Below are positions 14,757 to 34,485 of a DNA stretch of 34,485 bases, in pieces (position 1 is the stretch's first letter; every line of letters begins with the position of its first letter). The notes beneath the pieces were generated by a model. The model was not told where the DNA came from. It worked only from the letters and a program-made list of their open reading frames with translations, and made no database searches. This DNA comes from a virus. The stretch covers positions 1 to 34,485 of IMG/VR virus record IMGVR_UViG_3300032235_000435. One strand, written 5' to 3'. Made by a program: the position numbers and the translations under genes.

Positions 14757-14967
14757 GCCGCCGATCATCCACCTGATCGGGGTGGATTACTTCGTGCACT
14801 GGGACGCCCTGCTTGTCGGGGCGTCCTTCTTCCTACCTACCATTGCCACGACAGCTCAGGTGGTTGAGGTGCTTACGCCCATCGAGGAGGCACTTACTAT
14901 GACGTTTGCCGTACACACCCGCGTTGAATACGGGCGGTACGGGACGAGGGTTTGGCGGATTCAATAA
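14668..14967 (+). CDS. 99-residue hypothetical protein overlapping primase-helicase
   Basis: The frame starts 89 bases inside the primase-helicase gene, behind a near-perfect ribosome binding site (AGGAGG, 14657-14662, five bases before ATG). The product has ordinary composition, with a strand-rich centre (PPIIHLIGVDYFVHWDALLVG) and a C-terminal VEYGRYGTRVWRI. It is the last plus-strand gene; its stop overlaps the convergent giant gene. Function unknown. The strong binding site and protein-like composition support it. Confidence 0.75.
   Translation: MALPSGVTYSMELHLGSTKPRLSKVQTPPEPPIIHLIGVDYFVHWDALLVGASFFLPTIATTAQVVEVLTPIEEALTMTFAVHTRVEYGRYGTRVWRIQ
14802..14826 (+). terminator. Terminator-like hairpin inside the last plus-strand gene
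   Basis: A perfect 8-base-pair GC-rich stem (14802-14809 with 14819-14826) with a nine-base loop is followed by TTCTTCCT. It lies within the 99-residue gene and could terminate or attenuate the plus-strand transcript just before the convergent junction. The pyrimidine tract is weak and the element is also coding, so this is tentative. Confidence 0.3.
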
Positions 14968-17900
14968 CCGAGCGTTGCCTTGGCTTCGCGCAGCCAGCCG
15001 GTCATGTCAACTTCCATCTTGCGCAGCTCCTGCAGCTCCAGTGCCCGCTCTTCTTTGGACATCTCTGCGGCAGCGTCTGGGCTGTTGAGGTACTTGCGGT
15101 AAGCGCGGGTGCGTTCGAGCTGTTCCAGCGTCGAGTTGACTGCACTCTCCAGCATCAACACATCGGCGTTCTTCTCGGCGTAAGCTGCGGCCCGGTCGAG
15201 ATCGGTCTTGGCCAGCTCGTTGAGCGTGGCGTTGGCGCGGCCCACCTTTTCGCGGGTCTCGTAGAACTCGGTCATGCGGCGGGTGCCCACCGGGTCGTAC
15301 ATGTAGTTCGACAGCAGGGCCCACTTGTGCAGGGGGCGGTCCACACGGGTTGGGTTCAGCAGGGAGTCGGTCATTGCGACCAGCAGACCTGCCGACGAGC
15401 CGAAGTAGCCGTTGAGCGCGTTGTCCACGAGGATCGGAGACACCTTGTCCACACCGACCACATCCCGCGAGAAGTTGGCGATGGCGATGGCCAGCTCGGA
15501 CGTGTTGGATGCCCGGCGCAGGCTGGGGTCCTGCTGCTTCTGGTAGATGCCTTCCAGTTCGCGTCCAGTGAAGAACGAGTAGTTGGTCCACGCCTCCAGC
15601 AGTGGCTTGACCGCTTGTGGCACAGGCACCGTCCGTCCGACGTATTGCTCGAACATGTAGGTCAGGGCCGTGCGGGTTGCTTCCCATGCAGTCTGCTCTT
15701 CTGGGGTTCCTTGGCGGCGCATGTATTCGACGATGCGCTCGGGCACAACTTTGAACAAGGCACCCAGTTCGGTAGGCACCGGCAGCTTACCTACCCCCGG
15801 CAGAATCCAGTTGCTGTCCCGTGTACGCAGGTCCATCTCTTGGTATTCTTCGTCTTCACCGGCCATCAGTGCATACATAGAGCTGAGCGTCATGGCGATA
15901 GCGGCGCGGGTCATGAACATCTTGCGGGCTTGCGCACGCCCCACGGAGGAGCTGGAATCCTTACCCGATGCTGCACGGTACAGCACGTCCATACCTTGGA
16001 TGTAGGCGTTGAAGAACGGGATGGTCGTAACCAGCGCACCCACAGCGTCGCTCGCGCCACGGCGGCGGAAGTTGATGAATTCACGGGCACGGGTCTGTGC
16101 CAGCAGTTGGTCGCCGCCTTCTTTCAAAGTCTGCTCGTAAATCGCCTTACGGACAGCCAAGTCAGATGCGCGGGTAATGCCGTCCAGACGGTGCAGCAGG
16201 GTCTCAAACTTGCCCCGCTTCTTGTATCCCAAGTCCTTGAGGAGAGATACGGCAGGTTTGCCTGCCTCGAAGTCGTATTCGCCGGTAAGCCCCAGCCTGC
16301 CAAACTGCTTGACGGACGGATGCTGGATGCCGCGCAGTTCAGCGAACGCGATGCCCCCGAAGTTGGAGAGCGACATACGCAGCAGAGCGCCGGGGTTCTT
16401 CACACCCGAGGTCATGATGGCACGCTGGATATCGTCTGTCACCTGCTTGAGCGCGAAGGGCGGCAGTGCAGTCACGGACTTGCGCAGCACGTTGGAGAAC
16501 TTGCCCAGATTACGCAGCCAGCCTGCCTTCTGAGGGTTCATGTCCTTGAACGCCAGCACATCGTATTTGCTTGGCAGCTCCCAGTACATCATCTCGCCGT
16601 CGATGTAGCCACCCACTGCGTTGGCCTTCTTCTGGGTGTTGCGGCCCAAGAACTTGGCGTAGCCCAAATCCTCCAGACTGCGCAGGGTTTGCGTGTTGGC
16701 ATCGGACTTCATGGTCTGGCCAACCATCCAGCCAAGCGTGTTCAGGTAGTTCTCAAAGACGTTGCCAACGGGGCGTTGCTCGGAGCCCACCAGCTCTGGC
16801 AGCTTGCCCAGCTGGGCCAAGCCTTTGTTGCTGACCTTCTTGATTTTGCTGAACGCAGCGCTGAAGTCCTCGTCGCCAAGACGGTCGAACGGCACGTAGC
16901 CAACGGCATCTTTCCAAGCTTCCCCGGTTTCTTTGGTCAGGCGGCCGACGGCCACCATGTTGTCCACCATTGCAATACGCGACTCGTCCATCGCCTTGCT
17001 CATGGCCTGCAGGTCTGGGTCTGCGTTGTACTCGGCCACAAGCTGGTCGATCTCGGGGTCTTTGAGGTGAATCAGGAAGCTCGTGCCGTCTTCTCGGTTG
17101 GACCGACGCATCTCATTCAAGCGCACACCTTCGAGCACACGGCTGGCGATCTGGGTAGCACGCTCACGGTCGTACCCGTTCTTCTGACCCCATGCGTCGA
17201 TCAGGGCATACACCTCGGCAGGGGGACGCACACCGTTGATGCCTTGCACAACCCACAAGCCTGTTGCTGGGTCTTTGACCAGCCCGCCCACTTGGAAGTA
17301 TTCCAGCAGAGTCTTGGTGTAGTCCTGTGCCTGACGGTACAGGCCCATCGGGTTGAGCTTGCCCAGACTGTCACGCACGGCACCGTCAAACTGCTCGCGC
17401 AGGCGATGCTCGATTGTGGCAGCGGTATCCGCAACTTGCGTACGGAACTTGACGCCGTAGCTCGGCTCGGCCGGAGACATACCCGCTTTGAACGACGGGA
17501 TCAGTGCCTTGAGGCCAGTCTTCTGGTCGGGGTCCAGCGGACCCATGCTGTCGATCAGGGACTCTGTGGAGAACGATACGGAGAACTGATCCTTGACCCG
17601 CGCTGGTGCAGCTTTCACGGCCACAGTTGGTCGGAAGTCTGCGGGGCCAAGCTTGTTCAGGTAGTCGGCAACTGACTTAGCCGGTGGGAACTTGCGGCCT
17701 GTTACGACGGCAACAAGGTCGCGCATCTTCTGCGCCAGCTTGGAGAAGAACTTATCGGCAATGCTGAGCGGCTTCTCGTTTGTCGTGGCCCAACGGGATA
17801 CGTTGTCAGCAAACCACTCCCCAAATCCGGTCCAGTAGCTATCAAAGTTTTGCAGGGTCTTGGCGGCAGGGTCGTCCGCCCGCCCCGCTGCTTCCAATGC

Positions 17901-20846
17901 AGCGACGTTGATTTGCGCATCCTCACGGTTACGCAGCATTTCGATAAGCTCACGAGAAGTGGCACCTTTTGCCTTCTTGTGCCACGCAAGGTACTCGTCC
18001 GCGATTGCTTTGCGCGTCTCCGCATCGGCGTTGTTGTAGGCTTCTTTCTCGATGATGTGCCCGATCTCGTGCGCCAAAATTTCAACTCTGGCATTTTCAG
18101 AGAGCGACGGCTTCAGATAAACCGCGTAGGTTTTCTCGTCGGTGCCGAAAGGACCTGCAGACCCATTGAGCTGCGCAGACTTGAATTGCGAAGGACGCGC
18201 GAACGGGCCGTACAGTTTGTTGGCGTCAACAAAGTCGGACTGCGCTGCGTCATCCGCCGTATAAATAAACAACTTGATGTCGCCCAGTCCAAGAGACCGC
18301 AGCAGATTGGCAGCGTAGCCTTCAAGGGCCGGGCCGACCGATGGAGCGGCCACGACCGACTTACCGTCAGTAAAGGGTCCATCCGGATTGGCAGTATGCA
18401 ATTCAGCTTCGGCCTGCCGGGCTACATCCGCAGCGGCCATAAGGCGGGTCACCTGCTGGGGCGTAATCCAAGCCGGTTTCGTCTTGCTCTCGACCGGGTA
18501 GAACGCTTGAGTGCCGTCACGGTGCATCGGGAAGTACACCACCTCCCCGTACGCATTCACAGCGCGCACCAGCGCAACTTCGCCATCCTCATAAACGAGG
18601 CGTTGGTTACCCAGCAAACTTTTAGCCGCCCACGTAGAGGGGACAGACAATTCGGGCGCGGCCTCTTTGGTGAAGTCCAGTTCGCCTTGACGCGCATCTC
18701 GGGCAGCGGGAGCGGCTTCCTCGGCTTCAGGCTCCCCACGTTGACGTTCAGCGTACTCAAGCTCCTCACGCTTGCTCATGGGGAACAGCATGGCCTGCGG
18801 ACCCCGCAGGATTTCTTTCTGGCCCTCCTCCATGCCGAACTCTGACGTGCCGATGGGCTCGTACAGCTTCTCAGGGATAGGCGGCGTAGGTTGCGCTGCA
18901 CGGGGAGCTGCAGGGGCGGCAGGGGGCGCAGTTCGACCACGACCCCCCGCGCCTTGTTGGCGGGCCAAAGCGGCTGCCATTGCTGCAGCTTCAGCTTTGC
19001 GTGCGGCTTCCTCCTCAGCAGTTTCTACTGCAGCGGGCTCGACTCCTTGAGCTTCAGCTCGCGGCTCAGCAGGCTGTCCAGCAGGTACCAATCCGCGTCC
19101 GTCAGGTGTGACAGGGGCTGCGGCGGGTCCGGCCACTCCGGCTCCGGGTTCAGGAACGACGGCGGCTGCAGGCTCGCTAGGAACTCCCACGCTTGGCTCA
19201 CCAGCTCGGGGCTCATCTCGCTGCTCAGGCGCAGGCTTTTTGGCGGTGGGCGGGACATTGGTAGGCTCCTTGAATGTGGCTGGACGGGGTGCCAGCAGCT
19301 CGCGCAGGATTTTGGCACGCTTGCCCTTGCCTTCAATCAGGGTCGGGTCAGCGGTGACCAGTGCTTGTACTTCCGCCGAGGTCTTGCCGACGACGTTTTG
19401 CTCAAACCAACCACGCGTGGTGCTCGGGGCGATACCCGTGTCCTCCACGTCCTTCATGGTCAACTCGCCAGCACGGCCGCGCAGCGGAAGTTTGTATTGG
19501 TATGGGCCCGTGCGGGCATAGGGCGGCACAGGGGTAGGCTCACCGGGGGCTGCGGCTTCTTCGGCAGTGGGCTCAATGGCAGCAGGCGCGCCACCGAACA
19601 GATCGCCCTGCGTGCGGGCTTTGACCTCATCGGGCATGGTGAGCAGGTCTGGGGCTTCGGCCAGCGCGGGGAAGCGCTTGCGGCCTTCGGCATCTTGGCG
19701 TGCTTGCTCGGCATCGACTTCAGCCTGTGCGCGAAGCCCGGCGATGTTCATCTCTTCGTAACTGCGAATCTGCTCGCTCAGATCAGCCACGCGCTGCTCG
19801 ACCTCTGGGGTCGGTGGCTGCTGGCGCAGGCGCTCCCTCTCCAGATACAGCTGCTCAACTTCACGCTGATAGTCCAGACCGAGGTCCATCTGACCTGTGG
19901 GGGTAGCGGCAGCGGGTTCGGTGGGAGGTACGGGCGCTGCGGGAGCAACCGGGGCTCGACCCACGCCCATCTCGGCAGGGGTAAACATCTCACCTTGGGT
20001 ACCCGCTGGGGTTTCGGTAGCCGGAGGTTGGGTAGGCTGCGCACCCTTGGCGCGTCGGCCGAGCGCCAAATCCATAAGGCCCTGCACGATAGCGCCGGTT
20101 GCGCCGCCGTAGGCAGCTTGCTCCCCCAGACCTTCAATGAGTGCTTGCTCAGGCTTGTATACGCCACGGGCAATCAGGTTTTGGGCGAAGCCCGATGCAG
20201 CTTCTTGGGCGGCTTCTTCGCCACCGGCAATCATGGCCCGCTTGACAGCCTCAACACCTGCAGCTTTGGACGCCGTGGGGATACGGGACAGAATACGGAT
20301 GGGCGCGAATGCTTCCAATGCGCCGGGGATGGTGCCTAGAGCGGTGGCTGTACCGCGTTGATCGGCAGTAGCGCCCTCTTGTTCAGCACGCGTGCGGGCT
20401 TCTCCAGCGCCTGCGCCAACACCTAAACCAACGGCAGCAGCACGCCCGGCCAAGCCGAAAGGACCTGCGAGCAGGAACGGGGCTGTCGAGCCGACAGCTT
20501 CACTGAGCTTACGGGCAACGGTATCTTCGTACCCCGGAGCGGCTTCAAATGGCTTCTTGGCAGCGCCAGCCACAGAGGCGATCTTGGCTCGTGCGGACTT
20601 CTCCAACTCCTCTGGCAAGAGGGCGGAGGCACCAGTCGCTGCGGATTCCAGCAGGCCGACAGCACCGGGAACCAAACCTTTGAAAGCTTCTTTAACTTGG
20701 CCCCCGATCGTGGGCTCGGGGGCAGGAGGTTTATCGCCTTGAGCGGCAACCCCTTGGATGTACTGAGCGAGCTTCTTGGCCCCCTCCTTGTCTCCCGCAG
20801 CGTCAGCGTTGCGGAGTGCTTGGTAAAGGGCGTTCAAGTCGGCCAT
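14961..20846 (-). CDS. Giant polyvalent virion protein with metallopeptidase domain
   Basis: The 1961-residue protein is the largest in the window. It starts with a short helical segment and a Gly/Ala-rich hydrophobic region (about 110-150), followed by Pro/Ala-rich linkers (about 270-330 and 530-680). A zincin-like domain spans about 840-1080, with HEIGH at 926-930 and a downstream EWFAD (E1010, D1014) that can supply the third ligand. The C-terminal part (about 1450-1860) resembles the LPD38 domain of large polyvalent proteins, which phages package and inject with DNA to act on the new host (Iyer and colleagues described the class). A hydrophobic segment near 1640 may be membrane active. 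AAGGA precedes ATG 20846. I infer a packaged, injected protein; substrate unknown. Confidence 0.88.
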   Translation of the reverse strand: MADLNALYQALRNADAAGDKEGAKKLAQYIQGVAAQGDKPPAPEPTIGGQVKEAFKGLVPGAVGLLESAATGASALLPEELEKSARAKIASVAGAAKKPFEAAPGYEDTVARKLSEAVGSTAPFLLAGPFGLAGRAAAVGLGVGAGAGEARTRAEQEGATADQRGTATALGTIPGALEAFAPIRILSRIPTASKAAGVEAVKRAMIAGGEEAAQEAASGFAQNLIARGVYKPEQALIEGLGEQAAYGGATGAIVQGLMDLALGRRAKGAQPTQPPATETPAGTQGEMFTPAEMGVGRAPVAPAAPVPPTEPAAATPTGQMDLGLDYQREVEQLYLERERLRQQPPTPEVEQRVADLSEQIRSYEEMNIAGLRAQAEVDAEQARQDAEGRKRFPALAEAPDLLTMPDEVKARTQGDLFGGAPAAIEPTAEEAAAPGEPTPVPPYARTGPYQYKLPLRGRAGELTMKDVEDTGIAPSTTRGWFEQNVVGKTSAEVQALVTADPTLIEGKGKRAKILRELLAPRPATFKEPTNVPPTAKKPAPEQRDEPRAGEPSVGVPSEPAAAVVPEPGAGVAGPAAAPVTPDGRGLVPAGQPAEPRAEAQGVEPAAVETAEEEAARKAEAAAMAAALARQQGAGGRGRTAPPAAPAAPRAAQPTPPIPEKLYEPIGTSEFGMEEGQKEILRGPQAMLFPMSKREELEYAERQRGEPEAEEAAPAARDARQGELDFTKEAAPELSVPSTWAAKSLLGNQRLVYEDGEVALVRAVNAYGEVVYFPMHRDGTQAFYPVESKTKPAWITPQQVTRLMAAADVARQAEAELHTANPDGPFTDGKSVVAAPSVGPALEGYAANLLRSLGLGDIKLFIYTADDAAQSDFVDANKLYGPFARPSQFKSAQLNGSAGPFGTDEKTYAVYLKPSLSENARVEILAHEIGHIIEKEAYNNADAETRKAIADEYLAWHKKAKGATSRELIEMLRNREDAQINVAALEAAGRADDPAAKTLQNFDSYWTGFGEWFADNVSRWATTNEKPLSIADKFFSKLAQKMRDLVAVVTGRKFPPAKSVADYLNKLGPADFRPTVAVKAAPARVKDQFSVSFSTESLIDSMGPLDPDQKTGLKALIPSFKAGMSPAEPSYGVKFRTQVADTAATIEHRLREQFDGAVRDSLGKLNPMGLYRQAQDYTKTLLEYFQVGGLVKDPATGLWVVQGINGVRPPAEVYALIDAWGQKNGYDRERATQIASRVLEGVRLNEMRRSNREDGTSFLIHLKDPEIDQLVAEYNADPDLQAMSKAMDESRIAMVDNMVAVGRLTKETGEAWKDAVGYVPFDRLGDEDFSAAFSKIKKVSNKGLAQLGKLPELVGSEQRPVGNVFENYLNTLGWMVGQTMKSDANTQTLRSLEDLGYAKFLGRNTQKKANAVGGYIDGEMMYWELPSKYDVLAFKDMNPQKAGWLRNLGKFSNVLRKSVTALPPFALKQVTDDIQRAIMTSGVKNPGALLRMSLSNFGGIAFAELRGIQHPSVKQFGRLGLTGEYDFEAGKPAVSLLKDLGYKKRGKFETLLHRLDGITRASDLAVRKAIYEQTLKEGGDQLLAQTRAREFINFRRRGASDAVGALVTTIPFFNAYIQGMDVLYRAASGKDSSSSVGRAQARKMFMTRAAIAMTLSSMYALMAGEDEEYQEMDLRTRDSNWILPGVGKLPVPTELGALFKVVPERIVEYMRRQGTPEEQTAWEATRTALTYMFEQYVGRTVPVPQAVKPLLEAWTNYSFFTGRELEGIYQKQQDPSLRRASNTSELAIAIANFSRDVVGVDKVSPILVDNALNGYFGSSAGLLVAMTDSLLNPTRVDRPLHKWALLSNYMYDPVGTRRMTEFYETREKVGRANATLNELAKTDLDRAAAYAEKNADVLMLESAVNSTLEQLERTRAYRKYLNSPDAAAEMSKEERALELQELRKMEVDMTGWLREAKATLGY

Positions 20847-25463: not shown

Positions 25464-27419
25464 TTATCTCCGGCCATCAGGGCGCAGATCGAGCGACGGA
25501 ACGCCCAGTTGCCACTGCACACCCAAGCCTGTAGAGCTGACGCGGAACGCCATCTGACGCCCACGAACCCGCACATACACGATCTCGGTGAACTGCTGCA
25601 CCTCGTAGTTGCGCTGGCCTTGGTAGTTTTGCGTGCTGGTCACCGAAGGCGAGGCCGAAGCGCTGTAGTTTGCGCCGGGGTTTTGCCGTGGGCGCAGCGT
25701 CATGGTGACGGACGGGTTGTTGACCGTCGAGCCGTTGAAGGTGATGTCCGGGATCATGCGCCAGACAAACCCGTAGTTATGGCCATCGCCAATGTTAGCG
25801 TCCGCTGACTGGATGAACGCGGTGATGGGGCTTGGCGGATTGGTTGCGCCGTCGTCCACACCGTTCTCGTGGTAGATCAATTGGCCACCGTAACCTGCTG
25901 CAGACGGGAAGGTCCGCAAAGGGGTATCCAGCCAAGCCGTGCGGCTGAGGTTGCCGTAGGACCAGATTTTCTCCAAGTAGTTGTATATCACGTACTTGTC
26001 GATCACCGTGGAGTTGGCCGAGCAATAAAACCACCAGACTTCGTTGAAGCCTTCATTGGTACCCGCAAAGAACTGGTACTGCTGCTGCAGGTTGATGTCA
26101 CCAAAGATGTACTGGCGCAGAGGGCAGTAGAGCGTCTCCACACGACCGGAGTACATATAGAACTTGTCCAGACCCATCCAGTACGTGATGTTTGCCGCCG
26201 TGGCAGTAGCGTTGGGGCCAGCAATCGAGATGTTGTCGCCCAGAATCTGGAAGCCCCAAACGTACGGAGGTCCAAGGTACTGCATGGAGTACAGAGCCGC
26301 GTCGGTCCAGACCAAAATCTCCTGACGACCCTGCTGGTGCGCCACGATGGACGAACCTGTACTCAGGCGGTAGCTGCCCGCTTGGTTGGTGATAGCCGGT
26401 GCCCATACCGCGTAGTTTTCCTGATCGGACCAGCGCACCAGCAAGGGGTCCAGCCGGGTAGGGTCGTCCGGGTCTAAGGGGTCGTTGCACCCAAACGCAA
26501 TCACGAAGCGCGACGCATCGGAGATGGCCACCGAGTTTGCGACTGAAGGGCAGTCCGCGTCTGTCTGGTACGCCCCCGAGCTTGTGGGGGACAGCAGCAC
26601 CGCACGGTCGTAAATCAGTGGGTTGGGGTTGACTTTCCACAGATACAGTGCGCCGCCACGAGGGTTGATGATCAGGTCTTGGCCGTAGTTGTCTTGGCTC
26701 CAGAGGCGAAGCTGAATACCAATACCCACGCCCGCAGGCGCAGGAACACCCCAGCCAGTATCAGAAAAGCCCGGAGTTACCCCGCCCCAACCGCCCGCGC
26801 CCCAGCCCACACCGACGGTGTAAATGTCACTGCCGATCGAAAGTTGGTATGTAAAGGTGGCTGCCCCCGCAGTGCCTGACGACGTGGCAGGTGAAGATAC
26901 AGTGATGCTGTACGTGGTTGCGCTGATGTAGGTGATACGGAACTCTTGGTTCAGCGCAGCCGCAGGAATGCCGTTGACCGCACCAGAACCCGAAATCGTC
27001 ACGAAGTCCCCGTCCTTACCCGCGTAGCCGGGGTCATTGACCACCACTGTCGTGGAGCCGTTGGTCGTTGTGAACGCCCCAGAGGCGATTGTGTTGACGT
27101 CCCGGATGGGCGTCACGTCGTAGAAATCACCACCAGAAGTTGGCTGGATGTAGTACTTCATGTTGGTACCTACACCCATCAGGTTGTTGCCGCCCAACGT
27201 AATCCAGTTCCACAGTGATCGGGCGGTGCCCCAGAACGACCCAGTAGGCGGCTTCAAAGCGGCCTTGGCGATCCCCGTATCCGCGACCCACCCGCCGATT
27301 TTTTCGGGAAAGCCCGAGCGAAAGCGCACCTTGTCCATCTCGAACCAAGTGCCTTCGTTGGCAAGCGTCGTGGATTCTTTGTTGATCCCCGGCTTTAGCA
27401 GTAGTTTTTGCAGCGACAT
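25464..27419 (-). CDS. Large tail protein, nozzle-like
   Basis: The 651-residue protein starts MSLQKLLLKPGINKESTTLANEG and continues with EMDKVRFRSGFPEKIGGW, a beginning typical of environmental podovirus tail proteins. The body is beta-rich with many Trp, Gly and Tyr, including Ig-like inserts (about 120-200), and aromatic repeats such as VLVWTDAALYSMQY that suggest propeller blades. This is compatible with the nozzle family (T7 gp12 or P22 gp10) but I cannot prove homology by eye. GGGAG lies nine bases ahead of ATG 27419. It is just downstream of the endolysin gene in the same transcript. Confidence 0.8.
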   Translation of the reverse strand: MSLQKLLLKPGINKESTTLANEGTWFEMDKVRFRSGFPEKIGGWVADTGIAKAALKPPTGSFWGTARSLWNWITLGGNNLMGVGTNMKYYIQPTSGGDFYDVTPIRDVNTIASGAFTTTNGSTTVVVNDPGYAGKDGDFVTISGSGAVNGIPAAALNQEFRITYISATTYSITVSSPATSSGTAGAATFTYQLSIGSDIYTVGVGWGAGGWGGVTPGFSDTGWGVPAPAGVGIGIQLRLWSQDNYGQDLIINPRGGALYLWKVNPNPLIYDRAVLLSPTSSGAYQTDADCPSVANSVAISDASRFVIAFGCNDPLDPDDPTRLDPLLVRWSDQENYAVWAPAITNQAGSYRLSTGSSIVAHQQGRQEILVWTDAALYSMQYLGPPYVWGFQILGDNISIAGPNATATAANITYWMGLDKFYMYSGRVETLYCPLRQYIFGDINLQQQYQFFAGTNEGFNEVWWFYCSANSTVIDKYVIYNYLEKIWSYGNLSRTAWLDTPLRTFPSAAGYGGQLIYHENGVDDGATNPPSPITAFIQSADANIGDGHNYGFVWRMIPDITFNGSTVNNPSVTMTLRPRQNPGANYSASASPSVTSTQNYQGQRNYEVQQFTEIVYVRVRGRQMAFRVSSTGLGVQWQLGVPSLDLRPDGRR

Positions 27420-27434
27420 GGCGTGATTCTCCCA

Positions 27435-28034
27435 TCAGGCCGTCAGTACGGCAAGGGCGCGGTTTGTGCGCTGAATGCGGTCGTCCAGCCCGTGGGTGCC
27501 GCCGTTGATCTTTTTGGTCAGGCCGACCCAATCTTGCGCATCGGCAAACCTGTTGCACTTATGCGTGGCCCAGAACCAACCAGCCGTCAGGGCTGCGTAT
27601 TGGGGAGTCAGCACCAAATCGGGTTCTTTCACCAGATCAACCCCCAGCCATTTACCAGCATGAAAGTACCCGCTGTGGCCTGTAAGCTGAATGCAGCCTC
27701 GGCCCCGGAAACGGTGCCCATCCCCAGACGCTTCGTCTCGGTTCCCCATACGGTTAGCGTAGACGTTGTTGGCCAGTGCTTTGGGGTTACGGGCGTAGGG
27801 CTGGGCAGCATCCAGCGTGGGAAAGCGCCGGGGCCAGACTTTCATCAGGCGCTCAGCAGAATAGCTCAGGCCTTCCTCCAGCTTGGTGAAGTTGGCGCTC
27901 TCATGCCCGCACTGACCGATGAATGCCGCTTGCTGCAAGGGCGTGGCAAGCCCGCACCGGGCAAAGGTATCGTTCAAAGCAGGCACCCACTCGATGCCGA
28001 TCTTGAGCTGCTGAAGTTGTTCAGCGTTGACCAT
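27435..28034 (-). CDS. GH19 chitinase-like endolysin
   Basis: The 199-residue enzyme belongs to glycoside hydrolase family 19, used by many phages to cut peptidoglycan glycan strands. The catalytic Glu is expected at E45 in GHESANF, with a second acid in LEEGLSYSAERL (E53/E54). GRGCIQLTG (111-119) is the family's conserved substrate-cleft motif, and the RFPTLDAAQPYARNP segment is typical of phage members. There is no signal peptide or SAR helix, so release depends on a holin. It overlaps the 3' end of Rz by 14 bases, with GGGAG seven bases before the ATG. Confidence 0.93.
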   Translation of the reverse strand: MVNAEQLQQLKIGIEWVPALNDTFARCGLATPLQQAAFIGQCGHESANFTKLEEGLSYSAERLMKVWPRRFPTLDAAQPYARNPKALANNVYANRMGNRDEASGDGHRFRGRGCIQLTGHSGYFHAGKWLGVDLVKEPDLVLTPQYAALTAGWFWATHKCNRFADAQDWVGLTKKINGGTHGLDDRIQRTNRALAVLTA

Positions 28035-28515
28035 TGATCTGCTCCCTTACTTGGTTGTAGGCGTCAATGCAGGCGTTGAGCTGGTTGATGGCCCGGTCCC
28101 CGTCGGCTGCGATTTGGGCGATGAGTCGGAGGGTTTCTCGGTCGGCATCAGAAGGCTGGTCAGCCGGTCGGTCAAGTTCGCTTCGCGCTTCTTGGCGATC
28201 TCCGCTGGGAGCGGGGGTACTTGCGGGGGATTGTACGCAACTTGCGGCGGGGAGGCGCACCCGGCCAGCGCGGATAGCGCGATCAAGAGCAGAAGATTTT
28301 TGGTCAAGGGCATTGTTAGCCTCCAAGAGTTTGGTACTGCTTTCGTTGAGCCTGTCAGCCATCTGCCGCTCTTTGGCTCGGGATTCCTCGTTTTTCTGTG
28401 CGATCACCGCCTGCATCTCAGCATCACGGTCTCCCCACCCACGGCCGTAGCCCCAGCGGTAAAGCCCGATGACTGTCAAAATTACGACAGCGGCGGCGAT
28501 CAGATAGCGAGTCAT
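28021..28515 (-). CDS. Rz: Rz-like inner-membrane spanin
   Basis: The 164-residue protein has an N-terminal transmembrane helix (about 4-18), then a periplasmic coiled coil rich in Glu, Arg and Gln (about 30-85) and a Pro/Ser-rich linker with a C-terminal helix. This is the i-spanin layout: the protein spans the periplasm and, with the o-spanin, fuses inner and outer membranes at lysis. An o-spanin is encoded entirely inside this gene in another frame, as in phage lambda. Its ATG overlaps the upstream stop as ATGA, and the 3' end overlaps the endolysin start. Confidence 0.85.
   Translation of the reverse strand: MTRYLIAAAVVILTVIGLYRWGYGRGWGDRDAEMQAVIAQKNEESRAKERQMADRLNESSTKLLEANNALDQKSSALDRAIRAGRVRLPAASCVQSPASTPAPSGDRQEARSELDRPADQPSDADRETLRLIAQIAADGDRAINQLNACIDAYNQVREQINGQR
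28047..28313 (-). CDS. Rz1: Rz1-like outer-membrane lipoprotein spanin, nested in Rz
   Basis: The 88-residue product has a lipoprotein signal peptide with lipobox ALAGC (Cys19) followed by a Pro-rich stretch (PPQVAYNPPQVPPLP) and a short helical region, the o-spanin pattern. It is encoded wholly inside the Rz gene in a different frame. GAGG lies six bases ahead of ATG 28313. The lipid anchors it in the outer membrane, where it pairs with Rz. Confidence 0.88.
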   Translation of the reverse strand: MPLTKNLLLLIALSALAGCASPPQVAYNPPQVPPLPAEIAKKREANLTDRLTSLLMPTEKPSDSSPKSQPTGTGPSTSSTPALTPTTK

Positions 28516-29048
28516 GTCTCACCCCTTGCGTGTACCCGCTCACGGGCGATTTCTTCCGCAGCCGGATCAATGTAGTCCGGTGGGGTGCTTGGCGGTGGCG
28601 GAGGAACCCAGCTCTCATCAAGCTCTGGGTTTTTGTACCCCATCCAGTTCCAGTCAGGAACTACGCTTGTCGGCCCCGGGGGAGTCTGCGGCTGTGGCTG
28701 GGCCACCGCAGCCGCTGGGAACTTTGGGGGTTCAGGCGCTATCGCTTTTGCCACCGACCCGACGGCGCGTTTACTGATGACCCCGCCGATACCGCCCACA
28801 ATCAGCAGCACGATGTCGTTGAGCATCTTGGTATAGGCTTGGTCGATGGGGGCCATCGACTTGATAGGCTGCGTCACAAACGTCACCGAATACAGCAGGG
28901 CGATCACGATGAACGCCAAAATGAGCGTGACCACGACCACGACGAAACCCCATATCCGTGCCTCTAGGACTTCGACGTAGTTGTCGGTGGTCCCGTCACT
29001 TGTTAGCGTCTGGTTCGGCGGGGCTTTGGTTAGATTGTTGAACGGCAT
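28512..29048 (-). CDS. Membrane protein, candidate holin
   Basis: The 178-residue protein has a strong transmembrane helix (about 33-56), a second hydrophobic segment (about 78-92, LNDIVLLIVGGIGGVI), and a Pro-rich cytoplasmic-looking C-terminus. The gene sits directly upstream of Rz/Rz1 and the endolysin, where a holin is expected, and no other gene in this cassette has a better holin profile. It is longer than most holins because of the Pro-rich tail, so the call is moderate. It overlaps the lipoprotein gene by 53 bases. Confidence 0.7.
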   Translation of the reverse strand: MPFNNLTKAPPNQTLTSDGTTDNYVEVLEARIWGFVVVVVTLILAFIVIALLYSVTFVTQPIKSMAPIDQAYTKMLNDIVLLIVGGIGGVISKRAVGSVAKAIAPEPPKFPAAAVAQPQPQTPPGPTSVVPDWNWMGYKNPELDESWVPPPPPSTPPDYIDPAAEEIARERVHARGET

Positions 29049-29223
29049 TTATTTGCTTCTCCAAAATGGGGGCGACAAGGTACTCTGGACACATCTGGGT
29101 GAACTGGCACTTGGGCTTTTGGCACTGGGGTTTATGGAAGTTGTCAGGATTTTGACAGGGGTAGCGGTACTGGTCCTCACACCCAGCCAGCAGCGCCACG
29201 AGAAGCAAGACGCCGTACTTCAT
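28996..29223 (-). CDS. Cys-rich outer-membrane lipoprotein
   Basis: The 75-residue precursor has a signal peptide ending in lipobox LLAGC (Cys15), with Glu at +2, which should favour outer-membrane sorting. The mature part has four further cysteines (C23, C34, C39, C45), enough for two disulfides in an oxidising compartment, and a disordered Gln/Pro-rich tail. It is not Rz1, which is present separately. A role in superinfection exclusion (as with T5 Llp) or lysis is possible but unproven. The start overlaps the upstream stop and the 3' end overlaps the holin-like gene by 53 bases. Confidence 0.78.
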   Translation of the reverse strand: MKYGVLLLVALLAGCEDQYRYPCQNPDNFHKPQCQKPKCQFTQMCPEYLVAPILEKQINAVQQSNQSPAEPDANK

Positions 29224-29723
29224 TTTGACAACGGGTTAGAGGTTGCCCGCTTGAGCACGTTCATCTCAGCGCGAAGGGCTGCGGCCGTACTGTCGAGGTC
29301 TTGCTTGAGTGCAGCCAGCTTGGTCTGCACTTCCCGGGCTTGGCTCTCAACAGCCGACTTCACTTCCCGGCTGGACGCAGCAGATTCAGTAGCCGCGCCC
29401 TGTGCAACGGCACGAGTTTCGCGGGCAAGCGCGATTGCGTCGGATGATTTTTCAGCAATGCGAACTGCCTGCTCAGCGATAGAAAGCTGGCGCTCTTTGA
29501 GCGCTTTGACCTCGATCTCAAAAGCCTGAACCTTTTCGCGGAACTCAGTGTCGTCATAGGGTTTGAACTTGTCAACGGCTTCAATGGTCTTCTCCATCTT
29601 GCCCCAAAACTTAATCCCCGAATACGCCGCTCCCCCGATAAGTGGCAGGAAGGTCACGAGCAAGCCAAGAATCATCTGGCTGGATAAGCTCACTGAGTAT
29701 GTTTTGTTGTCTTCGGATGGCAT
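29220..29723 (-). CDS. Membrane-anchored coiled-coil protein
   Basis: The 167-residue protein has an N-terminal transmembrane helix (about 17-37) and then a long charged, Ala-rich coiled coil (about 45-160) with heptad-like spacing. It resembles spanin- or tape-like envelope proteins in shape but matches no named family I recognise. It lies in a run of exported or membrane proteins beside the lysis genes, and its 5' end overlaps the 387-residue gene by 113 bases. Confidence 0.75.
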   Translation of the reverse strand: MPSEDNKTYSVSLSSQMILGLLVTFLPLIGGAAYSGIKFWGKMEKTIEAVDKFKPYDDTEFREKVQAFEIEVKALKERQLSIAEQAVRIAEKSSDAIALARETRAVAQGAATESAASSREVKSAVESQAREVQTKLAALKQDLDSTAAALRAEMNVLKRATSNPLSK

Positions 29724-30774
29724 CCGGTAGCTCCTGTTTGAGACTGATCAATTCTACGATGGAAGGCTGGCGGGGCATAGCCCCAATCCGCTCAAGTCTT
29801 TGAGTAATCGACACCGCTCTCGCACCAGTCCCTGCAGACGTTCGCGGAGCAGAGCTGCCCGGTGATGGGGCAGCGGAAGTTTCCGAGCTCGTTTGGCTTT
29901 GGGGCTGCGATCCGCTGGCTTGGGTCGGTTGCGACGAAGGGGCCTCTGGCGTATCGGTAGGTGGCGTCATCATCGGCGCAAACCCCGGCATCGCAGTTAC
30001 AGGTGCGATGGGGGCTACGGGTGCAGACATGGGGCTGACTGGGCTGCTCGGATTGAGCGGACTGACGGGGCTGACGGGCGAGAGGACGTTTGTTGGATTC
30101 GTCATCGACTTCACGCAACTGTCGGATGTAGTCTGCCAGACGTTGGACCACACGGGGCTGCCATAGGGATTTGGGCATGTACTCGTCATTGACTGGGTAA
30201 TGCTTCCCGTGAATCCCGCTTGGCACGCCAGAGTTTGCGTCTGAGTGCTTATCTGGCATGTTGGTGGGTTCCATTTGCATGCGTCCTGTGTCAGTTGCCA
30301 TTGGCCCCAGATGGGCTGGCCGTAGGGGTTGGGGCAGGTGCTTTGGCGGGTGTACGTTTTGCTGCCACTTTGATTTGCGAGGCAGCCCTCTTGACGTGTT
30401 TCGACACTTGCTTTGCAAGTTGGAGGCGCTGGCGTGCAGGTATCCGAGATTTTGAACCAGCCGCTGTCAACGGCTGTTGAGCCAACGCAGTTTGACTCTC
30501 GCTTCCAAGTTTCTGTCCCGTTAAAGTTGACGGGGCATGGTCGCTGTTCGGTGACTGCGGAGTACGTGCAGGCTGGTGCAGGTGGCTGGTATGTAGGGCA
30601 GAAGGCTTGTTGCCATGTGGTGCTGTATGCTCCGGGCTGGCAGGCCCAGCAGGTGGCGTTGGCCGTACAGTGCCCAGCAAACCCCGGACGCGCAGGGCCA
30701 GCACAGAAACAGCCTTGAGCCAGCGCATTACTTGACCCCAGCGTCAGCAGTAGCCAGAGTAGGAACCTTGCCAT
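29611..30774 (-). CDS. Secreted Cys-repeat protein
   Basis: The 387-residue protein has a Sec signal peptide (cleavage near ALAQ20) and then a Cys-rich head. Three repeats of about 50 residues share exact spacing: C69-C80-C96-C113, C120-C131-C147-C166 and C173-C184-C200-C220, with Trp residues before the last Cys and CPNPYG motifs in repeats 2 and 3. A Pro/Ser-rich linker (about 230-320) leads to a helical C-terminus. The repeat pattern implies disulfide-stabilised modules, perhaps adhesive; I do not know the family. It overlaps both neighbours (by 47 and 113 bases) inside the envelope cassette. Confidence 0.78.
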   Translation of the reverse strand: MARFLLWLLLTLGSSNALAQGCFCAGPARPGFAGHCTANATCWACQPGAYSTTWQQAFCPTYQPPAPACTYSAVTEQRPCPVNFNGTETWKRESNCVGSTAVDSGWFKISDTCTPAPPTCKASVETRQEGCLANQSGSKTYTRQSTCPNPYGQPIWGQWQLTQDACKWNPPTCQISTQTQTLACQAGFTGSITQSMTSTCPNPYGSPVWSNVWQTTSDSCVKSMTNPTNVLSPVSPVSPLNPSSPVSPMSAPVAPIAPVTAMPGFAPMMTPPTDTPEAPSSQPTQASGSQPQSQTSSETSAAPSPGSSAPRTSAGTGARAVSITQRLERIGAMPRQPSIVELISLKQELPDAIRRQQNILSELIQPDDSWLARDLPATYRGSGVFGD

Positions 30775-31177
30775 ACAGCTTCTTGAACCTTTCTGGATGC
30801 AGCTTCACCCATGCCTCACGAGCTGCATCGCCAATAGCTCCGCCGATGGGGCAGGGCGATCCTGACATCTCCATCGCCTCCCAGACGCGAATGTCAGCGC
30901 ACAGGATGGCCACAGCTCCGACCTTCAAGCCTTGGTTGGACAGCTCCCGCGCCAGTTTGATGCGCTCGCAGTTTGCGTCCGTGACGGTGGTTCCACCTGC
31001 CACGCCAATGACCGTTGAGCTGATGGCACCAGACACAGGCACGGCGCAAATATCACTGCCCATTGCAGCAATGGATGGAGCCATAGCCGTTGGGGGCGGC
31101 TGCCCCCGGTAGTTGATAGTCGTGTCCTGCGCATAAACCAGCACAGGAGCCAGCAGGAGCAGGGCGAGGTACCGCAT
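30728..31177 (-). CDS. Exported hypothetical protein
   Basis: The 149-residue product starts at ATG 31177 (MRYLALLLLAPVLVYAQ), giving a clean signal peptide; an upstream in-frame start at 31231 would bury it behind a charged extension. The mature protein has a Gly/Ala/Val-rich region (about 45-65) and four cysteines. A C-terminal helix carries AREAWVKLHPERFKKLYGK. I recognise no function. It is the first of a block of exported or membrane proteins leading into the lysis genes. Confidence 0.75.
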   Translation of the reverse strand: MRYLALLLLAPVLVYAQDTTINYRGQPPPTAMAPSIAAMGSDICAVPVSGAISSTVIGVAGGTTVTDANCERIKLARELSNQGLKVGAVAILCADIRVWEAMEMSGSPCPIGGAIGDAAREAWVKLHPERFKKLYGKVPTLATADAGVK

Positions 31178-31181
31178 CCCT

Positions 31182-31409
31182 TTACAGCTCAAGAATAGCC
31201 TTGATTTCTGCGTACGTGGTTGCCGCATCAATCTGCTGCTGCATTACTGCGTACTTTTCGCGGATGGCTTGCCGCGCCGCTTCTGTAGCACTGGCGTTGG
31301 GCAACTGCGCAACGATGGCGTAATCGAGCGGATCGAACTCAGCGTCTCTTTTGCGTCTGCGAAATTCGTGGGCAGCCAATTTCAGTTTTTCAAAGTTGAC
31401 GCTTATCAT
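31182..31409 (-). CDS. Small tail-fibre-adjacent protein
   Basis: The 75-residue, mostly helical protein begins MISVNFEKLKLAAHEFRRRKRDAEF and ends in a helix with repeated Ala and Glu residues. Similar short proteins follow tail fibre genes in many phages of proteobacteria; a chaperone or assembly role is an inference from position. AGGAG is six bases ahead of the ATG, which overlaps the previous stop as ATGA. Confidence 0.75.
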   Translation of the reverse strand: MISVNFEKLKLAAHEFRRRKRDAEFDPLDYAIVAQLPNASATEAARQAIREKYAVMQQQIDAATTYAEIKAILEL

Positions 31410-31705
31410 GCTTCGCTCCTGAGTACCGGATTGCCTGCTTCGTCATAACCAACGACAGCATTGGTGGACCCCACGCCATAATCTTCCCCAACGCCTTGCG
31501 GCGTAGTGCCGGGGTCGATCTCCCAAGCAGAAGAAAACTGCGCGACTGTCGGCAGTTCAGACTCTTCCACGATTTGGTACGGGAGCCCGAACGGAACGTC
31601 TTTTTTCGCAATCTGCTCTACGGTCAAACCGCAAAACTGGGGGTAGGGGTTCAGCACAACAACAGAACCGCTGTTGTCCCAATAGATAATTTTTTTGGTT
31701 GTCAT
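31406..31705 (-). CDS. Small fibre-associated protein
   Basis: The 99-residue product starts MTTKKIIYWDNSGSVVVL at ATG 31705, with AAGG nearby. A strand-rich N-terminus is followed by LTVEQIAKKDVPFGLPYQIVEESELP, a pattern common in small proteins encoded just after tail fibres, and an acidic C-terminal part. A fibre assembly chaperone or cap is likely by position. An in-frame start at 31732 would overlap the fibre gene by 20 bases and is less likely. Confidence 0.72.
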   Translation of the reverse strand: MTTKKIIYWDNSGSVVVLNPYPQFCGLTVEQIAKKDVPFGLPYQIVEESELPTVAQFSSAWEIDPGTTPQGVGEDYGVGSTNAVVGYDEAGNPVLRSEA

Positions 31706-31712
31706 AAAAGCC

Positions 31713-32780
31713 TTATCTAAAAATTGCAACACCAGTCAGGGCGGTCAGCGCAGCACCGTTGAAGATAGTGAACTGCGAGCTTGAGTTGATTGCGCCGATA
31801 CAGGCGTATCGGGTGCTTCCGCTTCCACCCAATCCCGAAATTACGGGGGCGTAGGCGCTGTCAGCCACGGCCGAGGCCAAGTTTACTGTGCAAGGAACCG
31901 TACCGCTTGTGCTCGATATGTTGTAGCCAGCAACCAAGTTGCCGTTAATGTCGATACGCGCCCATGCTTTGCAAAGCTGCGCTGCAGCGATAGACGAGAC
32001 GTTTGCAGCGGTTCCGGCATTCGTGGCGTAGTCGGCGGAGCCCGCAAGGGTGGCGTAGCCTGCGAAGGTAGCGTTTGTGGCGTTTGATGCGTTTGTTGCA
32101 AAACTTACGGACTGGCCGCTAATGTTGCTGCTGGTGATGAACGAGCCGCCCGATGCCGGGTTGGTCGCGTTTGTGGCGTTTACTGCGTTTGTGGCGTTTG
32201 TGACCGCAGTTGTGCCGATCTGCCCAACGATGTCAGCAGCCGAAGCTACGGAGATCGCGCCGGTCCCGTTACCGCGCAAGAGGCCGCCGCTGGTAAACGA
32301 CGAAGCCCCCGTACCGCCGTCGGCGACAGCCAAGTCGGTGGCCAGCGTCAGGCTTGGCAGGTGGTTGTTTTGGAACGCGAAGTTGGTGCCGTCCGACCAC
32401 ACGGTCACGGTTCTGCCCGCAGGGATGACGACTCCGGTGCCCGCTGCCGTGGTGTTGCCCAGCACGGTGGAGTTGAAAATCGTCGCCGCTTGGGCGCTGG
32501 CGTTCTGGATAATGTACGTCTTCTCCGCCGGGGGAGCATAGACACTGAAAGCCGCGCCGGTGGTTGTTGTCAGCGCAAGGGTCATATTGCGCGACTGGTC
32601 AGCCGCGCCGTCCAGAGCGGTCAGTGCTTGGTTGGCCGAAGTGACGGACACCGACGTGTAACCTGTGATGGCAGACTCAATGAGCGTGCCGAGGTTCGTG
32701 TTGGTCGTGGTACCCCAGACACCGGCTTGGTCACCAGTGGTGATAAGGGTCAACCGCAGGGAAGGAGAAAAAGTGCTCAT
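31713..32780 (-). CDS. Tail fibre with Asn-Ala-Thr repeats
   Basis: The 355-residue protein starts MSTFSPSLRLTLITTGDQAGVWG, a typical N-terminus for fibres that attach to the tail (the TGDQAGVWG segment recurs in many phage fibres). Mid-region repeats of NAT and NATNA (about 195-265) imply a trimeric beta-helical shaft, followed by a C-terminal beta-rich tip ending FNGAALTALTGVAIF. Trimeric fibres bind host receptors. The gene's own ribosome binding site (AAGGA) is five bases upstream. It lacks the S74 domain found in the neighbouring fibre. Confidence 0.85.
   Translation of the reverse strand: MSTFSPSLRLTLITTGDQAGVWGTTTNTNLGTLIESAITGYTSVSVTSANQALTALDGAADQSRNMTLALTTTTGAAFSVYAPPAEKTYIIQNASAQAATIFNSTVLGNTTAAGTGVVIPAGRTVTVWSDGTNFAFQNNHLPSLTLATDLAVADGGTGASSFTSGGLLRGNGTGAISVASAADIVGQIGTTAVTNATNAVNATNATNPASGGSFITSSNISGQSVSFATNASNATNATFAGYATLAGSADYATNAGTAANVSSIAAAQLCKAWARIDINGNLVAGYNISSTSGTVPCTVNLASAVADSAYAPVISGLGGSGSTRYACIGAINSSSQFTIFNGAALTALTGVAIFR
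32071..32199 (-). repeat. Three copies of a 15-base repeat in the fibre shaft
   Basis: The plus-strand sequence GCGTTTGTGGCGTTT occurs at 32071-32085, 32167-32181 and 32185-32199; the last two are 18 bases apart in register. On the coding strand they specify parts of the NATNA repeats. Perfect identity at DNA level suggests recent copying or slippage. Confidence 0.75.
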
Positions 32781-32804
32781 ATGAGTCCTTACGTAGTGCC
32801 GCGA

Positions 32805-32984
32805 TTATGGCGTGTTTGGGGCGGTTTGGCCAGAGTCATCCGGGGCGGCTGCCTTGACTTGTGGGCCAGCTTGCTCCTGAATGGCTTGCACCAGTTGGAA
32901 CACTTCGCCGTAGGGGCGAGTGCCGAGGTATTGCATAACGCCGTTAAGCAGGGACAGTGTCAGGGTGATGTTTTGCTCGCTCAT
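32805..32984 (-). CDS. Small helical protein between tail-fibre genes
   Basis: The 59-residue product starts MSEQNITLTLSLLNGVMQYLG at ATG 32984, with GGAG six bases upstream. It has an amphipathic helix and a Pro/Ala-rich tail ending TAPNTP. The size and place between two fibre genes suggest a fibre assembly factor, but no family is assigned. Confidence 0.68.
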   Translation of the reverse strand: MSEQNITLTLSLLNGVMQYLGTRPYGEVFQLVQAIQEQAGPQVKAAAPDDSGQTAPNTP

Positions 32985-33304
32985 GCTTGGCTCCAAGGCA
33001 GGGGTGGGGTGACCACGGGTGGGTTGATCTGGTTGTCGATTTGTTGCTGCACGGCAGCTTCTGTGGCGTCTTTGTCAACGCCGTTGGCCCAAATCCAGCC
33101 CAAGACTTGTTCTTGAGTCAGGTCTGCGTAAGGTGTGAACGCGGAGCCAGTCGGCGTGGGAACCGCGCATGTGGAGTACACATAGGCGCTGTAAGTGTCT
33201 TGGGTGCCGGAGCAGGTCCAGTGCACGGTGAACACGACATCGGTGTGGCCGTCCTCTTGCGGGTAGCAGTCCATTGCTGTGACTGTCCAAGTGATTGTGG
33301 TCAT
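32981..33304 (-). CDS. Conserved small phage protein beside tail fibre
   Basis: The 107-residue product begins MTTITWTVTAMDCYPQEDG and continues with DVVFTVHW, a strand-rich domain, then a helix DLTQEQVLGWIWANG and PPVVTPPLPW at the C-terminus. This composition, including the closing TPPLPW, marks a family often encoded beside phage tail fibres; its role is not established. Its stop overlaps the next ATG by four bases. Confidence 0.8.
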   Translation of the reverse strand: MTTITWTVTAMDCYPQEDGHTDVVFTVHWTCSGTQDTYSAYVYSTCAVPTPTGSAFTPYADLTQEQVLGWIWANGVDKDATEAAVQQQIDNQINPPVVTPPLPWSQA

Positions 33305-33321
33305 GATTTACCTTTCAGTGG

Positions 33322-34485
33322 TTAAGGGTGCGATGCTTTGTAGGCATCAAATTCTGCTTTGAGTTCTTGGATGGCTGCAGTCAGGGTTGCCACAAGGAAC
33401 GAAGTGTCGATGCCTTGGGGTTTGATACTGCCATCTGCATTGACCGCATCTTTTTCGCCAGAGACGGCTTGGGGGCACACCTCTTGCAGTTCGTGAGCGA
33501 TGAAGCCCTCACCGTCAGAGCCATCGGCGTTCCACTTGTAAGTGCAAGGCTTGAGTGCAGCAACACGAGCCAATGCGCCTGTCATTGGAGTAACGGTATT
33601 TTTGAGGCGGTAGTCAGAAGTTGTGTTAAAGGCCGTGCCAGTGTTACTCACGAGAATGCTACCAATCACTGCGCCTGATGCATTAATACAGGTCAAGACG
33701 TTTGACTGAGTGACGGACAGGTTTTGCACCATGATTCCGTACCAACCACCTCCGTTGCAGTTCGTAACAATTGTGGAGGCGCTGCCAGATATGCCGCTTT
33801 GCCCATTAACAGATATCCACCCGCCAACCGTGAGTCTTTCAATTGCGGTTGTCGTATTGATCAGGAAATTTCCGGTGGAGGTAATACGGGCGCGTTCGCC
33901 ATTGCTTGTGCCGAAAATCAGGTTACCTGACTCGTAGTTAAAGGCGTATGCATCCAACCCGATCTGCCCGTAGATTGAGCCATCACCTCCCCCTGCACCA
34001 GACTCGGCAGTAGTAGCGTGAAACAACGACCAATGCCCCGCTGCGCTGGTGTTTAGATGTATCGTGTTGCCGCTACTGTTAATCGTTGGCGAAGTAGTGC
34101 CGACCCCCAAACTACCACCAGCCGTCAGCCTCATGCGCTCAACATCGCCTGTTCCAAACCGAATTGGGTTGGCCTGCTGGGTATAAATGAACCCCAAGTT
34201 GCTGTCTGCGCCAATCCGCATCGTGTTTCCGCCCGCCTGCCGGTATTCGGTAAAGCTGCCGGTAGAACCGTCAAGCGTCATGACGTTGTAACCCGAAATC
34301 ACGCGGGGGGTTGTGGTTCCAAGCCCCAATTGCCCACTCGCAGTCAGAGTCACCAGTCCTGTGGTGACGCCTGTGTTGCCGTTACCGATCCGCAGTGTGC
34401 CGTCCGGTGTTGCTGGTTGGAAGATCGTGAAGTTGTCGGTCGCGGTGGTGGAGGTTCCAACCTGTACGTTTTTTGCAATTACGGT
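33322..34485 (-). CDS. Tail fibre/spike with peptidase S74 chaperone domain, truncated at window edge
   Basis: The frame is open from the right window edge to its stop at 33322, so the N-terminus lies outside; 387 residues are visible. The body is beta-rich with repeats such as QLGLGTTTPR and SLGVGTTSP that build a fibre shaft. The C-terminus is the intramolecular chaperone of endosialidase (peptidase S74): TSDYRLKNTVTPM begins with the expected self-cleaving Ser (codon 33616-33618) and Asp, followed by GEGFIAHELQEV and a terminal coiled coil. Such domains assist trimer folding and are then cleaved off. This protein likely sets host range. Confidence 0.9.
   Translation of the reverse strand, partial: TVIAKNVQVGTSTTATDNFTIFQPATPDGTLRIGNGNTGVTTGLVTLTASGQLGLGTTTPRVISGYNVMTLDGSTGSFTEYRQAGGNTMRIGADSNLGFIYTQQANPIRFGTGDVERMRLTAGGSLGVGTTSPTINSSGNTIHLNTSAAGHWSLFHATTAESGAGGGDGSIYGQIGLDAYAFNYESGNLIFGTSNGERARITSTGNFLINTTTAIERLTVGGWISVNGQSGISGSASTIVTNCNGGGWYGIMVQNLSVTQSNVLTCINASGAVIGSILVSNTGTAFNTTSDYRLKNTVTPMTGALARVAALKPCTYKWNADGSDGEGFIAHELQEVCPQAVSGEKDAVNADGSIKPQGIDTSFLVATLTAAIQELKAEFDAYKASHP

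Follow-up and report, generated by a model that had tools for sequence, protein, structure and literature searches.

The complete IMG/VR virus record IMGVR_UViG_3300032235_000435 (34,485 bases; hereafter, the window) carries on its minus strand three adjacent genes that encode a signal-peptide protein (SP), a Cys-repeat protein (CysRep), and a membrane coiled-coil protein (CC). Comparisons of gene order and sequence among related viral loci indicate that these genes are one module, inherited as a set and in one order, with SP and CC as its conserved components and the middle protein as its exchangeable one. We refer to SP, CysRep (or another middle protein), and CC as the trio; this previously undescribed combination of exported and membrane-bound proteins is found in many aquatic bacterial viruses. 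In the window, SP (149 aa; 30728-31177) consists of a signal sequence followed by a domain with four conserved Cys residues and a helical core (residues 68-135). CysRep (387 aa; 29611-30774) comprises three disulfide-type beta repeats, a disordered, Pro/Ser/Thr-rich spacer, and a short, helical C-terminus, and CC (167 aa; 29220-29723) has a single N-terminal membrane segment, a coiled-coil, no Cys, and a C-terminus that reads ...SNPLSK. The next gene on the same strand encodes a small, Cys-rich lipoprotein (Lipo, 75 aa; 28996-29223) with the lipobox LAGC and four Cys residues. An initial annotation of this DNA had treated all four as linked, envelope-targeted genes. Its coordinates and overlaps (47, 113, and 4 bases) were exact, and the linkage held for the first three genes and not for the fourth, since Lipo follows the lysis genes.

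To map gene order, relatives of CysRep, SP, and a 178-aa membrane protein encoded downstream were collected from viral contigs and built into profiles. Each locus set comprised the best 80 per scan and is skewed toward close relatives, and the iterated hidden Markov models were derived from the very loci that they count. Signal peptides and membrane segments were called by rules, and loci were treated as duplicates when they shared segments of 300-350 bases, except in the overlap counts, which were not deduplicated. No near relative of window positions 27000-34485 was present among 50,697 phage records. Linkage was assessed with an alignment of a holin with three transmembrane segments (3TM holin), a gene unrelated to the trio whose eight seed sequences were nevertheless taken from trio loci. 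Of the 80 loci retrieved, 52 were testable, as 26 were too short upstream and 2 were duplicates. Results showed that SP, CysRep, and CC were each present in the same 29 loci and that the remaining 23 had none of the three. CC also followed SP in 106 of the 111 phage loci with SP (repeated contigs removed). Among the five loci without a recognized CC, L072 and L084 encode a CC-like protein that ends differently, L320 encodes a similar protein lacking the C-terminal motif described below, and the contigs of L333 and L334 are short. The initial annotation had named separate occurrence in other phages, with no conserved neighborhood, as the finding that would speak against a unit; genes 1-3 did not occur in this scattered fashion, and the four-gene unit was not upheld.

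SP is recognizable in the pelagiphages HTVC023P, HTVC202P, HTVC115P, HTVC033P, Baldr, and Mosig, in a Votkovvirus, and in the Roseobacter phages CRP-810 and CRP-207, all of which score E 1.5e-26 or better against the profile of the window SP. In each of these phages, the gene after SP encodes a larger exported protein and the one after that a small coiled-coil protein with an N-terminal transmembrane segment, an order interrupted by additional genes in HTVC115P. Their middle proteins show no detectable relation to CysRep. The middle protein of the Votkovvirus has an N-terminal domain whose best Pfam match, CBM_4_9, is sub-threshold (E 0.0089; 16.8 vs. 25.9 bits), those of pelagiphages look similar to this domain and have an acidic spacer, and a third, helical-looking type occurs in the Roseobacter phages and in freshwater loci L072 and L084. 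Judging from these comparisons, the middle protein is of at least three unrelated types, i.e., Cys-repeat, carbohydrate-binding-like with an acidic spacer, and helical. The CC proteins of the different groups likewise have little sequence in common, and almost all of them terminate in N-P-L, with at most four residues after it. When CC was scored by the presence of an N-terminal membrane segment and no other, a length of 60-240 aa, and a C-terminal N[PRK][LM]x0-4, the motif was found in 113 of 256 open reading frames (ORFs) of the right topology downstream of SP compared to 0 of 1568 elsewhere in the same DNA. In one locus (L042:4456-5022) and its relatives, SP begins with an XhlA-like cytoplasmic segment followed by a membrane helix in place of the plain signal peptide. 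Public records file the trio genes as hypothetical or misname them (OmpA, lysozyme, TonB). For example, the "lysozyme" annotated at the CC position of CRP-810 and CRP-207 (L149:7255-7677 and L156:3292-3873) has no Pfam lysozyme and looks wrong, as does the "transport protein tonB" in the CysRep/CC region of MW202481 (L145:6302-7408).

The fourth gene has a different distribution. In 144 of 145 testable loci (repeated contigs removed), a gene of the 178-aa family followed Lipo within 900 bases, and Lipo was present in 18 of the 91 SP loci having at least 4.5 kb downstream. These distributions indicate that Lipo belongs with the cassette of 178-aa protein, Rz, Rz1, and endolysin, outside the trio. 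Because Lipo tracks that cassette and few trio loci carry it, a single four-gene cassette is unsupported, and this candidate was rejected. Lipo relatives do occur beside marine-type trios in L228 (8417-8599) and L233 (4436-4708), where the gene order is altered. Lipoprotein prediction, a check proposed in the initial annotation, gave a strict lipobox in 69 of 78 distinct Lipo relatives and in none of 46 distinct SP or 41 distinct CysRep sequences. In the window, the cassette continues on the minus strand with the 178-aa membrane protein (28512-29048), an Rz-like i-spanin (28021-28515; phrog_1327, E 9.5e-13), a nested Rz1-like o-spanin (28047-28313; phrog_3198, E 3.4e-6), and a chitinase-like GH19 endolysin (27435-28034; PF00182, E 1e-10; phrog_181, E 9.8e-82). 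PHROG matches thus bear out the lysis genes that the initial annotation placed here, except that its "holin-like" 178-aa protein, so called by position, matches only phrog_25359, a family of unknown function (E 2.5e-8). A scan of viral contigs returned 598 stretches related to this protein.

The first two overlaps in the window, 47 bases between SP and CysRep and 113 bases between CysRep and CC, are conserved. The former was 47 or 50 bases in 46 of 58 locus pairs and the latter was 113, 134, or 143 bases in 45 of 54, with constant phase save for two pairs in which our script chose an inner start. Overlap as such is not peculiar to the four genes, as the 4 bases shared by CC and Lipo are followed by overlaps of 53 bases (Lipo to the 178-aa protein), then 4, then 14. 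Outside the overlaps, ratios of non-synonymous to synonymous differences (pN/pS) relative to other family members were 0.08-0.28 for SP, 0.07-0.26 for CC, 0.14-0.26 for Lipo, and 0.22-0.46 for CysRep. These values indicate purifying selection on all four genes, with the fastest evolution in the middle gene of the trio. Since each of the four has relatives and is under purifying selection, they are more than chance ORFs. Moreover, the constraint on the outer genes, together with a middle gene that evolves faster and can be exchanged, suggests a holder plus plug-in. Scans for promoters and terminators gave results at chance level.

Properties of the individual proteins are consistent with a location in the envelope. 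An alignment of SP shows 26 invariant columns, and 62 of 65 complete relatives have four Cys after residue 20. The AlphaFold2 model of SP has a mean predicted local distance difference test (pLDDT) score of 68.8 and a confident helical region, at 84-91 over residues 71-140. No match in the PDB had an E-value below 2.7 when this model, which is only moderate, was searched with Foldseek, and the matches near the top in a viral structure library were all SP relatives or phage proteins of unknown function. CysRep has an even number of Cys in 47 of 53 complete relatives, and its repeat number varies between phages. In its AlphaFold2 model, the repeats (residues 70-222) have a pLDDT of ~95 and are followed by a disordered spacer of ~120 residues (<50) and a short helical end. 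The best VIA match to this fold reached Z 4.0 (root-mean-square deviation 7.5, 154 residues aligned), which is far below a trustworthy Z; staphylococcal adhesin modules of the SasG/Aap type were among the matches listed. Thrombospondin-type and G5-E-like beta repeats were considered as candidate folds for CysRep; thrombospondin repeats did not stand out, and its best Foldseek match was not below E 0.26. CC contained no Cys in 50 distinct proteins. None of the four window proteins was named above threshold by Pfam, NCBIfam, or PADLOC, nor were SP, CysRep, and Lipo in a sequence search of the PDB. PHROGs has a family for SP only among the four, phrog_20531 (E 2.7e-10 over residues 27-110; E 2.8e-18 for the SP of HTVC023P). 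This is a family without a function, and it is silent on the middle protein and CC.

The module occupies various genomic positions: it follows tail-fiber genes in some loci, precedes terminase in others, and lies beside primase in T4-like marine phages, where primase is annotated in Mosig and was recognized by a CxxC-type motif in L331, L332, and L229. Among 57 large ORFs upstream of the trio, several tail-fiber PHROGs each matched 2-4 ORFs (per-family counts). In the window, a minus-strand gene for a 355-aa protein judged to be of the tail-fiber type by composition and position (31713-32780) lies upstream. Between it and SP are a 31406-31705 ORF, for which an inner ATG of the 108-aa ORF 31406-31732 was taken as the start and which has no family match, and a 75-aa ORF (31182-31409) with sub-threshold Pfam and PHROG matches only and a relative in one other locus, L031 (both on the minus strand). 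The place of the trio can also be filled by other genes. In L065, where the 178-aa protein is 85% identical to that of the window, and in L066, a small membrane protein that we label XhlA-like and an unrelated C-tail-anchored protein, KYF, stand where the trio would be; a pair of this kind, with the C-tail-anchored protein in phrog_32327 (unknown function), occupies this place in L065 (3035-3985) and most Lipo loci. Of 124 Lipo loci with enough upstream sequence, 104 have KYF and no SP, 14 have SP and no KYF, 5 have both, and 1 has neither. We read this pattern as pointing to an interchangeable slot for KYF and the trio. It is short of proof of equal function because the loci were fetched by cassette genes and are related. 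Elsewhere in the window, a minus-strand ORF of 1961 aa (14961-20846) encodes a very large protein.

Taken together, the data support a location of the trio in the envelope, its composition as a holder with a plug-in, and its heredity as a unit, and any functional assignment goes beyond them. Because the trio is exported, optional, and modular, has a fast-evolving middle protein, and lies near tail genes in some loci, we favor exclusion or envelope modification, and we tentatively suggest that the trio may work in superinfection exclusion rather than as an accessory to lysis. SP and the middle protein would be exported and disulfide-bonded, CC would be anchored in the inner membrane, and the conserved N-P-L tail of CC could dock SP, the other conserved part. 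SP and CC would in this way form a holder for the interchangeable protein, whose flexible spacer would let it extend into the envelope or across it. Least certain are two further steps, namely that the holder would present a protein that sits in the infected cell's envelope and bars entry to further phages, and that the middle protein would be exchanged because receptors and rivals change. That pelagiphages, Roseobacter phages, and freshwater phages keep the gene order while their middle proteins are unrelated argues for such a system. Somewhat less probable is that the trio forms an undescribed trans-envelope machine, common to phages that infect SAR11, Roseobacter, and freshwater bacteria, in which a swapped plug-in on the fixed SP and CC holder would control which phages or molecules act on the infected envelope.

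Several observations weigh against exclusion. Spackle of T4 and Llp of T5 each work as one small protein, and here there are three; Spackle is an early gene product and the trio genes sit among late genes; and neither Spackle nor any solved structure was matched in PDB sequence searches or among the listed Foldseek matches, the SP model being moderate. With PADLOC, which models host defense, the only match was that of CC to the coiled-coil protein JetC2 (E 0.0025), which we treated as noise. Orientation predicted from positive charge placed the C-terminus of CC inside in 22 of 50 proteins and the N-terminus inside in 11, with neither in 17; were the C-terminus inside, the docking model would fail. 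Eight alphaproteobacterial contigs (L335-L342, Caulobacterales/Hyphomonadaceae and others), not counted as phage loci, have an SP domain without CC, and in the three that were read this domain ends an N/Q/G-rich exported protein. These chromosomal relatives were dropped as a functional clue since the genes stand alone. Finally, lysis genes were found downstream of Cys-repeat trios in 59 of 59 loci (downstream genes only), which fits a lysis role equally well.

Indeed, an accessory role in lysis, in which the trio would act with holin and endolysin, e.g., in timing or as a third-step disruptor of the outer membrane besides or instead of Rz/Rz1, is the rival to which we give most weight, and we nonetheless consider it unlikely. 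A holin or endolysin family was present within -2.5/+4.5 kb, counting both sides, in 65 of 86 phage SP loci. Representative freshwater Cys-repeat loci run from SP, CysRep, and CC, through optional extra genes, into the 3TM holin and endolysins of several families (GH24, GH19, or M15-like), and in some no extra gene intervenes. In Mosig and L332 the 3TM holin lies on the opposite side of the trio (in L332 by sequence look only). By comparison, only 7 of 32 non-Cys-repeat trios had detected lysis genes downstream, and when 76 ORFs around 19 of these loci were scanned against PHROGs, the holin and endolysin families among the 25 listed had no more than two members each. In HTVC202P, the endolysin is 20 kb from the trio. 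CC has the look of an i-spanin, with its N-terminal transmembrane segment and coiled-coil, and Rz was not detected over threshold in 24 trio records (PF03245 and phrog_1327 each 0/24, with one sub-threshold PF03245 match in HTVC033P), compared to matches in 17 of 17 window-type or Rz-type records that served as a control. However, Rz of the window family was absent from all 52 of the 3TM-holin loci, including the 23 without the trio. Since Rz is missing from these loci regardless of the trio, the trio cannot be taken for a spanin substitute, and the at first attractive reading that it replaces Rz/Rz1 was weakened and set aside. Moreover, the window carries the trio and Rz/Rz1 side by side, and SP and CysRep lack a lipobox. 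Considering that related cassettes occur without the trio and that other trio types lie away from lysis genes, a core part in lysis is doubtful and, from the sequences, unlikely. Some trio-less cassettes of 3TM holin and endolysin (L363-L420), which have no window-family Rz/Rz1, have only tail or metabolic genes upstream.

The remaining explanations are less probable still. One is a surface adhesin or aggregation device, whereby infected cells would display the middle protein (a beta-repeat stalk or carbohydrate-binding domain) and hold cells or debris together, as proposed for pelagiphage curli. Curli was considered since pelagiphages carry it (PMC9599517, PMC9004378, and PMC7029224). The curli type VIII secretion system (T8SS) operon resembles the trio in that its envelope genes are likewise inherited jointly in pelagiphages, and the CBM_4_9 match of one middle protein, sub-threshold as it is, the variable repeat number of CysRep, the adhesin modules among its fold matches, and the N/Q/G-rich alphaproteobacterial relatives of SP would all suit an adhesin. 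However, the CsgG pore (PF03783) was found in 0 of 14 trio records while control genomes were positive, so curli T8SS was rejected; the trio has no outer-membrane pore or lipid anchor, and the fold match is too weak to be trusted. We regard an adhesin as improbable. That the trio proteins are virion parts, i.e., tail or ejection components with incidental hydrophobic N-termini, might be supposed from tail-fiber genes adjoining the trio in several loci, and is very improbable given that the N-termini are of the signal type, SP and CysRep have even Cys numbers, and CC has a membrane segment, features that fit export and not cytoplasmic assembly. Least probable of all is that the three are unrelated neighbors held together by late-operon synteny alone, without joint function. 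A packed, one-directional operon with many overlaps could produce such an arrangement, yet the order persists in unrelated backgrounds and with three unrelated middle types, and presence is all-or-none.

Cultured phages that infect Roseobacter or SAR11, a very abundant group of ocean bacteria, carry the module, and the proposed constant holder with its replaceable exported protein gives a testable prediction for phage action on the host envelope. SP followed by a membrane coiled-coil protein ending in N-P-L provides a simple marker by which the system can be found in any phage genome. No description of the trio was recognized among the papers listed in full-text searches of 5.39 million open papers, a scope that excludes supplements and many subscription papers, and the accessible portions of the papers on CRP-810 and HTVC033P make no mention of it.

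Among known systems, Rz/Rz1 resemble the trio in that CC has the architecture of an i-spanin (by rule-based calling of its transmembrane segment) and lies beside lysis genes. They differ in that the trio has no lipoprotein partner and the window has its own Rz/Rz1; CC has no Rz family match, reaching phrog_9841 only at E 0.17. T4 Spackle is a periplasmic, helical exclusion protein with one disulfide (PMC7677548). SP may be similar in being exported, in its compact helical domain and size, and in its predicted disulfide chemistry. Spackle differs in being a single, early protein of 75 aa with one disulfide, whereas SP has four Cys and partner genes, and no Spackle chain was among its PDB sequence matches or the listed Foldseek matches of its moderate model. 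The T4 sp gene presumably lies near gene 61, which may be compared with the primase near the trio in T4-like marine phages. T5 Llp and T1 Cor are likewise small envelope proteins encoded beside tail or receptor-binding genes; each is a single lipoprotein, in contrast to a trio of proteins in which SP and CysRep have no lipobox. Llp is said to be encoded "adjacent and downstream to pb5", the receptor-binding gene (PMC9586334). We do not claim that the trio belongs to either family; rather, by analogy, Spackle and Llp may be precedents for its possible mode of action.

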